64,000 nt of DNA from Salinispira pacifica (GTDB taxonomy: Bacteria > Spirochaetota > Spirochaetia > DSM-27196 > Salinispiraceae): assembly GCF_000507245.1 (NCBI RefSeq), contig NC_023035.1:3577570-3641569 (forward strand), read 5' to 3'. Below, piece by piece: positions 37,613 through 42,801 of the stretch. The notes beneath the pieces were generated by a model, which made no database searches, was not told the origin of the DNA, and saw nothing but the letters and a program-made list of their open reading frames with translations. A program made the position numbers and the translations under genes. Within the stretch, counting starts at the first letter, position 1, and each line of letters starts with the position of its first letter.

Positions 37613-38428
37613 TTACGGAGCAACAATAAAGCTTCTCACATCAGGAAATGCCGGGGAGTATTGGGGAATAATGCTGGGCGAAGCCCCCTCTCCTGCAGGA
37701 AGATTTGTGAAGATTTGCCCCTCTGCGCCATCGATGTACATCCAGGTACTGGCTTCGCCCTCCCTGGAAGTCACACTCCTGGACACATAATGGGAGTACA
37801 CTTCAACATATGGAAAATGGTTGCCGTCCCAATCTCTCAAGCTTTCGAAAGTGTAATCTGTGGCATCCCCTTCAAGCCTGGTTCTTCCGAATTCAAACTC
37901 ATAATTGTCGGTAAATCCCCGGTATCCGTAGGCTATGCTGTATTCTGATGGAACATCGGAATTAAGAGAAACGGTGTAGCTGAGCTGGGTATCGCTTTCG
38001 GTGAGCTGGGTTCCACGGGAAGGCAGGGAGGGGCTCAGAGAATATTCGGGAAACCCTTCCGGTATTTCGCCGGAGAGTTCATAGCTTCCGGCCAATGCAT
38101 GCTTGGCACTTACCTGAATGCTGTCCCCGGCTGATGCGTTGATACTCCCAATATAATAGAACTGTTTTGAGCCGTCAGAATACTCAATATCCTGCTGGTC
38201 CAGCTTGGTGCCGTTTACCGTGAAGGTCGCATTTTTCAGGGATTTGTAGTCGTCATTATTATTCCAGTAGTACATATCGGCATAGACCCGATAGATACCT
38301 TCACTTCCGCTGGGGTACATGGAAACATACACGTTCAAATCTTCTCTGGGTACACCAAGAAAAATATTTGAGCATGAACTGAATAACAGAACCGCTGCAA
38401 CGAGAAGAAAACCAAGTTTTTTCGTCAT
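37613..38428 (-). CDS. Hypothetical lipoprotein
   Basis: The signal and lipobox LLFSSC (Cys19) are clear; the start at MTKKLGFLL (38428) follows GGAGTCAAT. The ~250-residue mature part is acidic and rich in Tyr, Ser and Asp, with beta-strand-like segments (NVYVSMYPSG, IYRVYADMYYW, QLSYTVSLNSD). No family was recognised. It probably lies in a two-gene unit with the SGNH lipoprotein downstream. Confidence 0.75.
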   Translation of the reverse strand: MTKKLGFLLVAAVLLFSSCSNIFLGVPREDLNVYVSMYPSGSEGIYRVYADMYYWNNNDDYKSLKNATFTVNGTKLDQQDIEYSDGSKQFYYIGSINASAGDSIQVSAKHALAGSYELSGEIPEGFPEYSLSPSLPSRGTQLTESDTQLSYTVSLNSDVPSEYSIAYGYRGFTDNYEFEFGRTRLEGDATDYTFESLRDWDGNHFPYVEVYSHYVSRSVTSREGEASTWMYIDGAEGQIFTNLPAGEGASPSIIPQYSPAFPDVRSFIVAP

Positions 38429-38532
38429 ATTGACTCCAATAAATCTAAATTTGTGCATCAACTCATTATACCCGTATATGTTATGGCGTCAAATCAATTT
38501 CCAACCTTTTCGCCAGCCTGAATCCTGCCTTA

Positions 38533-40038: not shown

Positions 40039-40067
40039 AAGAGGCGGCCCATCATAGGCCGCCTCTT
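40039..40067. terminator. Bidirectional terminator-like hairpin
   Basis: AAGAGGCGGCC-CATCATA-GGCCGCCTCTT has an 11-bp perfect stem between two convergent genes. An A-run precedes it (40035-40040), giving a T-run for the minus-strand gene; the plus side has only short T-runs. Confidence 0.75.
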
Positions 40068-40161
40068 GCTTCAGATACTTTTTATTGCTCTTCTATGGCA
40101 TTTTCCAGACCCCGCTCCTTTTCTGCCACTGACTCTGCTACTGACTCTACCACTGACTCTA

Positions 40162-41352
40162 CTACTGGGCCTGGATTTTATCGTAGGTGAGCGTGGTGCT
40201 CCCGGTGATAATCGTCAGGGTATCGCCGGAAATACTGTAGGTCCAGGTGAACGTATTCAGGGTCCAATCTGAAGATGATGTGGCGGGAGATGTATTGCTC
40301 AACTGATTCAAAATCATTTCCCCGTCCGGAGCATTATATCCCACATCCAGACCTCCGGCATCAAGCAGCTTATCACCGCTGGAAGGTCCTGCAGTGGAGT
40401 CCGATTCAGAATATGACCACAATATTATGTTCCCCGCCAAGGGGCCGGTTACCACCGACTGTCCGGAGTCAATGAGCCCGAAAGAAGATGCAATATCCAT
40501 TGGTGAAATGTGGATGTAGTCCGCCATACCCGATTCCTTCCCGGTGTATTCCCACCAGCCGAGAACACCGCCGAAATCCGGTGCACCCGGTGCTTCACGG
40601 GTGAAGTGCTCCTCAACGGTATATTCCACTCCGTCGATAGTCTGCGTCTTGCTGAGAATCAGATCACCGTTTTCGGTTATTTCATAATTTTTCGGCCAGT
40701 TTGAAAAACCCGAGTTGCGTGAACCGCTGCGGGGAGAGGTAAACACCTGATTTTGTCCGGCTGTCTGGAGCATACCGTCTTCGGTAACACTGATGCTGGT
40801 CTCGATTGTCGGCTCAGAGCTTATCTGTCCCGGTTCGCCCAGAGATCCGTCAAAACCATGGGTATCCCACATAATATCTGCGGCCACAACCACCGAGCCG
40901 TCTTCTGAAACGGTCATCCGTGTGGGGAAATGCTGAAAGACAGAATCGGGAAAAAACACGGAATCTGGAAAGAAGAATGAATCGGGGAAAAACGAAGAGT
41001 CAGGGAAGAATACACTGTCGGGAAAATAAAACACTGAGTCAGGATAATAGGCATCGTTGGGATAATAGGCATCGGAAGGGTACCAGCCCTTATCTGTAAT
41101 AAACACCGAATCCGGGTACTCCAACCCTTCAGCGGCAAATACCGAGTCGGGCCAGTAGAGGGTATCCGGAAGTGAGTTTGTCACCTCCTGCCCATCCGCA
41201 TACACGTCAACATCCGTCAGCCACCAGTCTCCGGCCAGTTCCTCAAGTACCGCAGAGTTGTCGATCCCGGTGAAGTCACAGGAGGCCAGGAGAAAAGCTG
41301 CCGGAATAAGCAAAAGAATAAAAATTTTTTCATGAATTTGATACTGTTTCAC
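40162..41352 (-). CDS. Lipoprotein with tandem (F/Y)PDSVF repeats
   Basis: The GTG start at 41352 is set by AAAGGAGAGACCT; signal and lipobox FLLASC give Cys25. The 396-residue precursor then carries, at about residues 66-139, some ten copies of the motif aromatic-PDSVF or close variants (WPDSVF, YPDSVF, FPDSSF, FPDSFF), with a dense run of hexapeptides at the end. The remainder is beta-rich (TMTVSEDGSVVVAADI-like, WTYSISGDTLTIITGSTTL at the C-terminus). No family was recognised. A surface or periplasmic structural role is plausible. The repeats encode an 18-bp unit that could vary in copy number. Confidence 0.78.
   Translation of the reverse strand: MKQYQIHEKIFILLLIPAAFLLASCDFTGIDNSAVLEELAGDWWLTDVDVYADGQEVTNSLPDTLYWPDSVFAAEGLEYPDSVFITDKGWYPSDAYYPNDAYYPDSVFYFPDSVFFPDSSFFPDSFFFPDSVFFPDSVFQHFPTRMTVSEDGSVVVAADIMWDTHGFDGSLGEPGQISSEPTIETSISVTEDGMLQTAGQNQVFTSPRSGSRNSGFSNWPKNYEITENGDLILSKTQTIDGVEYTVEEHFTREAPGAPDFGGVLGWWEYTGKESGMADYIHISPMDIASSFGLIDSGQSVVTGPLAGNIILWSYSESDSTAGPSSGDKLLDAGGLDVGYNAPDGEMILNQLSNTSPATSSSDWTLNTFTWTYSISGDTLTIITGSTTLTYDKIQAQ
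40936..41157 (-). repeat. 18-bp tandem repeat region inside a lipoprotein gene
   Basis: About ten imperfect units read TTC-CCC/CCG-GAT/GAC-TCC-GTG/TTT-TTC on the coding strand, encoding FPDSVF. The run from 41040 to 40936 is uninterrupted; units further 5' are spaced by 10-20 residues. Confidence 0.75.
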
Positions 41353-41473
41353 AGGTCTCTCCTTTATCTGTTGAAGAATGTATCCCTCCCGGAAATCCAA
41401 TACCATAGGCGATTTGTCAGGTTTTTTGGCCATAGCGTGTTATATTTTATGTGACGTGCAGACAGGGAAGCTT

Positions 41474-41779
41474 ATGCCAGGGTATGTTCAGAAATTCAGA
41501 ATCGAAGACCGGACGGTATTAATCATTCCCATGGACACTGATGTCCGGAGTCCGGCTGCCGGTTTCCACACCCGATTTACCGACATCGAGCGCCAGCTTG
41601 TGGCCTGCCTCAGTAAAGGTTTACATGATCGGGAGATCGCACGGAATCGAAGAACCTCGGTAAGCACCATACAGAACCAATTGCACGCACTCTATAAAAA
41701 GGCCGATGTGTCGGGCCGTGAAGAGCTTCTGGCAAAGATTCTTTCACAACACAAAAATACCCGGGAGCAGAAGCCGTGA
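41474..41779 (+). CDS. Small LuxR-type helix-turn-helix protein
   Basis: From the ATG at 41474 this is a 101-residue protein with a short N-terminal strand region and a C-terminal LuxR/GerE-type domain: TDIERQLVACLSKGLHDREIAR, then TSVSTIQNQLHALYKKADV. It has no receiver or other sensor. Its stop overlaps the GTG of the next LuxR gene by four bases (GTGA), so the two are translationally coupled and may act together. An earlier frame start (41378) is less likely. Confidence 0.75.
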   Translation: MPGYVQKFRIEDRTVLIIPMDTDVRSPAAGFHTRFTDIERQLVACLSKGLHDREIARNRRTSVSTIQNQLHALYKKADVSGREELLAKILSQHKNTREQKP

Positions 41780-42801
41780 GCCGTTCTCCGTTCGCTCTCA
41801 TGGACAGCATCTACCGCCTGGACCTCAATCAGGAACAGTGGACAACAAATCTCGCATCAGAAATACAGAGACAGCTAGGTCTGGGCCCGGGCCTGCTGAA
41901 ATATGACTTCGCCCTTCATGAGCGTCGCATTCGTGTGGGCAGCGTGGCTGCTTTCGGAGATATAGATGAATACAGAAAATTGACTATCCCCTTTCACCGT
42001 GAGGTCTCTCCGGAAATATACTGGCCGGTATTCCGGAAAGGCACCCACTGCAGCACATCCAGGACGATGCTTGCCGCAGATGATGTATCGGAACAAAATC
42101 AGGAAATCTTGGATCTGACGCTTCAACACCTTGGATACTCGGATATTTGGGCCCTGTGCGCAGTGGAGCCGGATTTTTCAGGATCCGTTTTTGCCGTTCC
42201 CGTTCTGCCGGGTGAGAAAAATCGCTATCCCGTAGAGGATGAAGATTGGACCAAAATTGCAGTACATATCGCCGCTGCAACCCGGCTGCGGCGGCACTTT
42301 CCACACATGGATTTTTCGAATCATGAGACATATTCAAAAAGGGATATGATAATGTCTTCCGTGGGGTCCAACGCAGATCCCGGGGCCGATTCCCGGCAGG
42401 CTGATCTCGGAGAAGAGATGTACGAAGCGTTGGTACGAACAGTACAAACCGTTTCAAAACACCGAAAACTCAAGACTTCCAGCCAACTGATGGATGTCTG
42501 GCCGGGACTGGTCCAGGGCAGATGGAGCCTCATTCCCGTGGAAGGAAACCGGGGCGAACGCTACATGGCAGCCGTCGAAAACCCTCCCAGGATCGCAAAG
42601 GACCATCGCCTTACAACCCGGGAAAACCAGGTGGTCCAGTACGCAGCCCAGGGACAGAGCAACAAGCAAATTGCCTATACCCTTGGTCTCTCGGTCAGTT
42701 CTGTGGGCACATATCTTTCACAGGCATTGAAAAAGCTGGGTATTTCCCGGACCGATCTGATAGTATTCATCAAGAAATTGCTTGAGAACCACAGGATGTG
42801 A
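41776..42801 (+). CDS. LuxR-family regulator with unknown N-terminal sensor
   Basis: This 341-residue protein has a C-terminal LuxR helix-turn-helix (TTRENQVVQYAAQGQSNKQI, then AYTLGLSVSSVGTYLSQALKKLG at about 275-320). The first ~260 residues form a mixed fold of unknown family, possibly GAF/PAS-like (SDIWALCAVEPDFSGSVFAV). GTG start overlapping the previous stop. It is probably a one-component regulator partnered with the small LuxR protein; target and signal unknown. The YwbE-like gene follows 43 bp downstream. Confidence 0.8.
   Translation: MSRSPFALMDSIYRLDLNQEQWTTNLASEIQRQLGLGPGLLKYDFALHERRIRVGSVAAFGDIDEYRKLTIPFHREVSPEIYWPVFRKGTHCSTSRTMLAADDVSEQNQEILDLTLQHLGYSDIWALCAVEPDFSGSVFAVPVLPGEKNRYPVEDEDWTKIAVHIAAATRLRRHFPHMDFSNHETYSKRDMIMSSVGSNADPGADSRQADLGEEMYEALVRTVQTVSKHRKLKTSSQLMDVWPGLVQGRWSLIPVEGNRGERYMAAVENPPRIAKDHRLTTRENQVVQYAAQGQSNKQIAYTLGLSVSSVGTYLSQALKKLGISRTDLIVFIKKLLENHRM

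Follow-up and report, generated by a model that had tools for sequence, protein, structure and literature searches.

A tandem aromatic hexapeptide array in a Salinispira pacifica lipoprotein, alike as peptide and diverged as DNA, with counterparts in Saccharospirillum and haloarchaeal lipoproteins

The nearest known counterparts of the lipoprotein described here are the DUF6517 (PF20127) lipoproteins of haloarchaea, which are likewise exported lipoproteins (lipobox read by eye) with arrays of hexapeptides of the same formula, their units including FPDSTF, FPDGYF, FPDTLF, WPDSVF, IPGSTW, FPGDTW and FPGETY. They differ in that several have arrays at two or more sites, whereas the Salinispira pacifica protein has one array and gave no match over the cut-off with the DUF6517 profile. 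A lipoprotein of Saccharospirillum salsuginis is similar in having YPDSVF units (six there) with scrambled codons, but BLASTP between the two proteins gives a strong match only over the array (68.9 bits) and nothing above 20 bits away from it; neither has a Pfam family. Among described repeats, the left-handed beta-helix of the Hexapep family (PF00132) has the same six-residue period, a hydrophobic position 1 and an often small position 5, whereas the S. pacifica array has Pro where Hexapep has Gly (position 2), contains aromatic positions, and gave neither a profile match nor predicted strands. Elastin-type APGVGV repeats can be likened to it by description, as hexads with a Pro-Gly or Pro-Asp turn, although they are aliphatic while the S. 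pacifica hexads are aromatic and acidic. Lastly, the putative lipid binding protein PDB 3h3i, presumably from Bacteroides, shares Cys-Asp, GDWW and DGxEV with residues 25-59 of the lipoprotein, and is the best lead from the sequence searches, though a weak one (E 0.12, not significant). In open-licence PMC full text, we found neither a published description of these hexad arrays nor a paper on DUF6517.

S. pacifica L21-RPul-D2 is described as a spirochaete isolated from a hypersaline mat on Kiritimati (PMC4511686). Its genome, with family placement in the Spirochaetaceae, is a single contig of 3,782,798 bases, of which we analysed a stretch of 64,000 nucleotides (positions 3577570-3641569; hereafter the window). 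The ORF bearing the array begins at 41433 as listed, but the GTG at 41352 fits better and is preferred as the start, since AGGAG stands ahead of it and the product opens with a lipoprotein signal (Table 1). The N-terminus reads VKQYQIHEKIFILLLIPAAFLLASC, in which we recognised by eye a signal with a lipobox ending in Cys, the rule used for calling lipoproteins, and the lipoprotein call of the sequence-only reading therefore stands.

Table 1. Features of the lipoprotein gene and units of its hexapeptide array (positions in the window; units are listed by first residue)
Feature	Residues	Position	Strand	Basis
Lipoprotein gene, 396 aa, GTG start		40162..41352	-	translation
Likely ribosome-binding site AGGAG, 6 bases ahead of GTG		41359..41363	-	read from sequence
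Lipoprotein signal peptide, lipobox LASC, cysteine C25 last		41278..41352	-	read by eye from translation
Hexapeptide array, 11 units Phi-P-[D/N/S]-[S/T/D]-x-[F/Y]	61-139	40936..41172	-	
Array-free C-terminal part	140-396	40165..40935	-	without Pfam family at E<=10
Terminator-like hairpin, 13 pairs, downstream of lipoprotein gene		40039..40067	-	consensus scan
Unit LPDTLY	61	41172-41155	-	
Unit WPDSVF	67	41154-41137	-	
Unit YPDSVF	79	41118-41101	-	
Unit YPSDAY	91		-	
Unit YPNDAY	97		-	
Unit YPDSVF	103		-	
Unit FPDSVF	110		-	
Unit FPDSSF	116		-	
Unit FPDSFF	122		-	
Unit FPDSVF	128		-	
Unit FPDSVF	134	40953-40936	-	

The hairpin downstream of the gene is weak, since the consensus scan found one there and a mean of 1.6 in shuffles. 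At 40082-40167, just past two stop codons, lies a 12-bp repeat (Tandem Repeats Finder, 40122-40167), which in another minus-strand frame encodes VESVVESVAESVAEKERGLENAIEEQ followed by a stop; this frame is perhaps a C-terminal tail lost by frameshift, or else chance. Divergent from the lipoprotein gene are two ORFs with a 4-base overlap (41378-42801), the first with a weak HTH match (18.1 bits; cut-off 23.5) and the second with a LuxR-type HTH (GerE, E 6e-14), and these could be controllers of the lipoprotein gene. The window also holds another lipoprotein-like ORF without Pfam or NCBIfam match (37613-38461) and a cobalamin riboswitch (2100-2282, 96 bits).

Nine of the 11 array units fit [FYWL]PD[ST]x[FYL] and six are [FYW]PDSVF, while YPSDAY and YPNDAY are decayed units that are off pattern at positions 3 and 4. 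The array is interrupted by AAEGLE, ITDKGW and one additional Y, and its contiguous stretch consists of five units (residues 110-139). When the residues were shuffled 20,000 times, 19,678 shuffles had no unit of the nine-unit pattern, 320 had one and 2 had two. The minus-strand array reported by the sequence-only reading is thus real, though it extends to 41172 instead of ending at 41157 as stated there (the 40936 end was correct). The same reading spoke of at least ten near-identical units; near-identity does not hold for the DNA, where identity between units averages 0.68 (8 strict units) or 0.58 (all 11).

All eight core units are distinct as DNA. Over the eight strict units, pS is 0.94 and pN 0.16, and deviations from the consensus occur at 23 of 48 third codon positions against 8 of 96 first and second positions, a comparison in which the choice of units by peptide pattern biases positions 1 and 2. 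The five contiguous units therefore provide a fairer test, and here the deviations number 13 of 30 and 5 of 60, respectively. Tandem Repeats Finder reported 2.8 copies (72% matches) and nothing more for the array, in which the longest exact DNA repeat is 15 nt, between YPSDAY and YPNDAY. Since the peptide is alike while the third codon positions are scrambled, the units are probably old and kept by selection on the peptide. Selection was judged from units within the array because the lipoprotein lacks an orthologue: none for the whole protein was found among 100 relatives, genome contigs and plasmids (10 pattern stretches in the genome contigs, 0 confirmed). The S. pacifica lipoprotein falls within the hexad class as we defined it, that is, at least three tandem units, distinct as DNA and alike as peptide, in an exported protein. 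Across its own genome, the one-unit pattern matches 32 times, 7 in the array and 25 as scattered singles (reversed-pattern control, 3); the excess of single matches probably reflects codon usage, which the reversed control does not model.

The sequence-only reading also held that such aromatic-PDS ladders are unusual and proposed to search for the motif in other proteins. When 84,980 species were scanned for exact matches to three (F/Y)PD(S/T)x(F/Y) units in tandem, the outcome agreed with it: five loci were returned, of which three are real arrays, in S. salsuginis, Haloarcula amylovorans and Haloglomus halophilum; the other two are spurious frames of 41 residues with identical DNA units (L008) and of 107 residues (L009). 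The gammaproteobacterium S. salsuginis comes from subterranean brine, and its lipoprotein (L011:3926-5458) has six identical YPDSVF peptides encoded by six different DNA units (pS 0.98, pN 0). In the class of its genome (G103), the three-unit pattern matched 1 of 369 genomes, namely G103 (control, 1), and the array protein is absent from 21 other members of the family. Among Spirochaetota, the two-unit pattern was found in 36 of 296 genomes at 45 places (control, about 18 places), and translation of all 45 revealed more than one pair only in S. pacifica.

The arrays of H. amylovorans and H. halophilum (class Halobacteria) are in DUF6517 lipoproteins, at several places in each. The two-unit F/Y pattern was found in 8 of the 391 haloarchaeal genomes, and its reversed control in none. 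Four of these have real arrays, in DUF6517 proteins (G104, G441 and G403) and in a protein that matches DUF1102 marginally (G190; 23.6 bits, cut-off 22.2), while the frames from G182, G195, G318 and G368 have a single pair only and were dropped. A wider four-unit pattern matched 9 of 361 genomes (control, 3). Five of these matches are in DUF6517 proteins by Pfam (G104, G134, G149, G264 and G441); the G150 protein is that of Natronosalvus amylolyticus, which was Pfam-scanned as DUF6517, and the G358 protein was assigned by its 92% identity (629/686) to it. The remaining matches are G190 and G212, the latter with four VPDAEF units, near-identical as DNA, after a CitG-type enzyme domain, which was not counted. 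Most sampled haloarchaea therefore lack such arrays, given the 8 of 391 and 9 of 361 genomes matched.

Haloarchaeal units are of the FPDSTF, FPDGYF, FPGETY, FPGDTW and IPGS[TS]W types. Four DUF6517 members have a big array of exactly six units (looser ones in one member), and runs of 4, 5 and 10 occur too. In an alignment of five DUF6517 proteins, ten IPGS[TS]W units of Natronosalvus stand at the place of six FPD units elsewhere, between shared flanks; MAFFT may force repeats into register, but the flanks nonetheless agree. The codons of the IPGS[TS]W array are scrambled between units, and the G150 and G358 orthologues both have ten units, nearly codon for codon, with 175 of 180 bases identical in the array against 1872 of 2058 over the whole frame; G358 has one ILGSTW and one MPGSTW unit. 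Two DUF6517 proteins have mixed repeats, namely FPGDTW units with a WSDWYPAG-type repeat (L282:99-2471), and FPGDSF/IPGDSF and FPGGMW/FPGDTW arrays with several VGRL stretches (L149:610-2874). Two PDB matches to these arrays were rejected: that of 8zxl to the IPGSTW array is an artefact of composition (bias 270, without an aligned stretch), and that of 6agf to the array region of the G264 protein (E 1.1e-5) was ascribed to composition as well. BLASTP of the S. pacifica lipoprotein against the G403 DUF6517 protein gave a 37.7-bit piece at 24% identity that extends past the array. Because the array is inside this piece, we attribute the match to the array and not to kinship of the remaining protein, with distant homology a possibility.

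Pfam, NCBIfam and PDB sequence searches with the S. pacifica lipoprotein gave no reliable match, in accord with its earlier description as otherwise unrecognised (no Pfam match above cut-off, no NCBIfam match). PF12888, which we take to be the family of PDB 3h3i, has no match in the S. pacifica genome. Of 297 Spirochaetia genomes searched with the array-free 257 aa, 295 lack a match at E<=0.01, and the other two are the S. pacifica genome itself and, marginally, G048 (E 0.0098 over 63 aa). Six other candidates, five from the search among relatives and one from the S. pacifica genome, were rejected, among them matches antisense to longer ORFs (L002, L003), a short stretch within a presumably LptD-like protein (L005), an SVPDSD linker (L006) and a 126-aa lipoprotein matching residues 7-58 (L007). 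A 66-residue frame in spirochaete G093 (L004) fits the hexad with FPDSGF and three IPDSGF, but its units are identical as DNA except for the first codon, and we therefore treated it as a DNA repeat and did not count it.

In its loosest form, Phi-P-[D/G]-x-x-aromatic, the hexad is not limited to exported proteins: it occurs in the enzyme-linked G212 frame and in frames from viral contigs, which counts against the reading favored below. Nine viral-contig loci were rejected as YPE-type or short frames, and a loose scan of such contigs gave at least 120 matches, of the VPEVPF/VPDVPF, LPEPSF, LPELPW, FPEFLW and FPDCLW types. Among the 120 matches listed, none has P-D or P-G followed by S/T (position 4) and F/W (position 6). 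The G212, VPDVPF-type and FPDCLW-type frames were set aside on the sole criterion that they lack S/T at position 4. Two viral contigs (L102, L104) encode a long protein that combines YYPEPT repeats with numerous AQAEAQR units.

The sequence-only reading had suggested a beta-solenoid. In such a fold the hexads would stack as a triangular coil resembling a left-handed helix, with 18 residues per turn and an aromatic ladder. The six-residue period, the turn-forming P-D/G, the often small position 5 and the aliphatic position 1 of IPGS[TS]W all fit such a coil, and exactly six units, or two coils, are found in the four DUF6517 members mentioned (including the looser one) and in the S. salsuginis protein. 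However, arrays of 4, 5 and 10 units exist as well, the left-handed beta-helix does not typically have Pro at position 2 or a bulky Phe at position 1, and a Pfam search with only the array yielded no family, Hexapep included, at E up to 10. AlphaFold (AF2) returned a pLDDT of 36.6 for the whole lipoprotein as a single sequence, with strands at 83-92 that fall between units (pLDDT about 30), and 55.1 (pTM 0.14) without strands for the array with seven further rows, a shallow set of eight. With so shallow a set, low pLDDT and no secondary structure in the array, we claim no solenoid from these predictions; on all the points above, one is possible but unlikely.

The same predictions, with low confidence and an array devoid of secondary structure, would suit a flexible, disordered spacer that has no binding role of its own and depends on composition over sequence, and short tandem repeats are often spacers. 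We regard this as equally doubtful, since the hexad is kept although its codons are scrambled, for example as six of six identical peptides in S. salsuginis, which exceeds a constraint on composition.

It is very improbable that the array is a mobile or selfish DNA element inserted in frame into unrelated genes, as Rickettsia palindromic elements are. Unrelated proteins do bear arrays, and a single protein can have them at several sites, but between organisms the units agree as peptide and not as DNA, and in the S. pacifica genome the one-unit matches outside the array are all scattered singles. Least probable of all is a contingency locus varying a surface protein by slippage, as the sequence-only reading implied in calling the 18-bp unit slippage-prone: the units are tandem and in frame with one exact 15-nt repeat, and the related FPGETY array of G134 does have near-identical DNA units, but the near-identical units expected of a phase-variable locus are not seen in S. 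pacifica, as the eight core units, their mean identity and the 2.8 copies attest, and the related IPGS[TS]W array stays at ten units in two orthologues although the rest of their sequence differs.

What is observed, then, is an array whose units are alike as peptide despite scrambled codons and which recurs in otherwise unrelated exported proteins. We favor, with slightly less than even confidence and on the basis of sequence patterns, an exposed, turn-rich hexad arm in an exported, lipid-anchored protein that makes contacts at high salt and is held by selection on the peptide. The protein would bear an N-terminal arm of about 80 residues built of Phi-P-[D/G]-[S/T]-x-aromatic hexads. Pro-Asp-Ser and Pro-Gly-Ser favor tight turns, and each hexad would place one such turn between aromatic residues. 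Turns flanked in this way suggest that the arm is extended and rich in turns, with an aromatic and acidic surface, and it may project from the protein body and serve in interaction or contact with a matrix outside the high-salt cell. Changes in unit number would come from occasional duplications spread over long periods and not from phase-variable slippage.

The hexad may be a module reused across protein families of halophiles, by convergence or ancient transfer; its hosts are DUF6517, DUF1102 (marginal) and two lipoproteins without a Pfam family. The link to salt is a lead and not a count over all life, since it comes from few genomes in the groups and classes sampled. More tentatively, and with clearly less confidence than the arm itself, we propose that Phi-P-[D/G]-[S/T]-x-aromatic is an undescribed module, reused in salty habitats by exported proteins that are unrelated to one another and belong to both Bacteria and Archaea. 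As related proteins can have one unit in place of another (IPGSTW for FPDSTF) under an unchanged formula, the module might specify a definite structure, or a surface chemistry, adapted to brine.

It is common to interpret short tandem repeats of surface proteins as slippage loci. In this array the peptide is kept while codons differ from unit to unit, and unrelated proteins from a spirochaete, a gammaproteobacterium and haloarchaea share one formula. Should the association with high salt be true, the hexad would represent a simple structural element for surfaces in brine, and would offer a handle on DUF6517.
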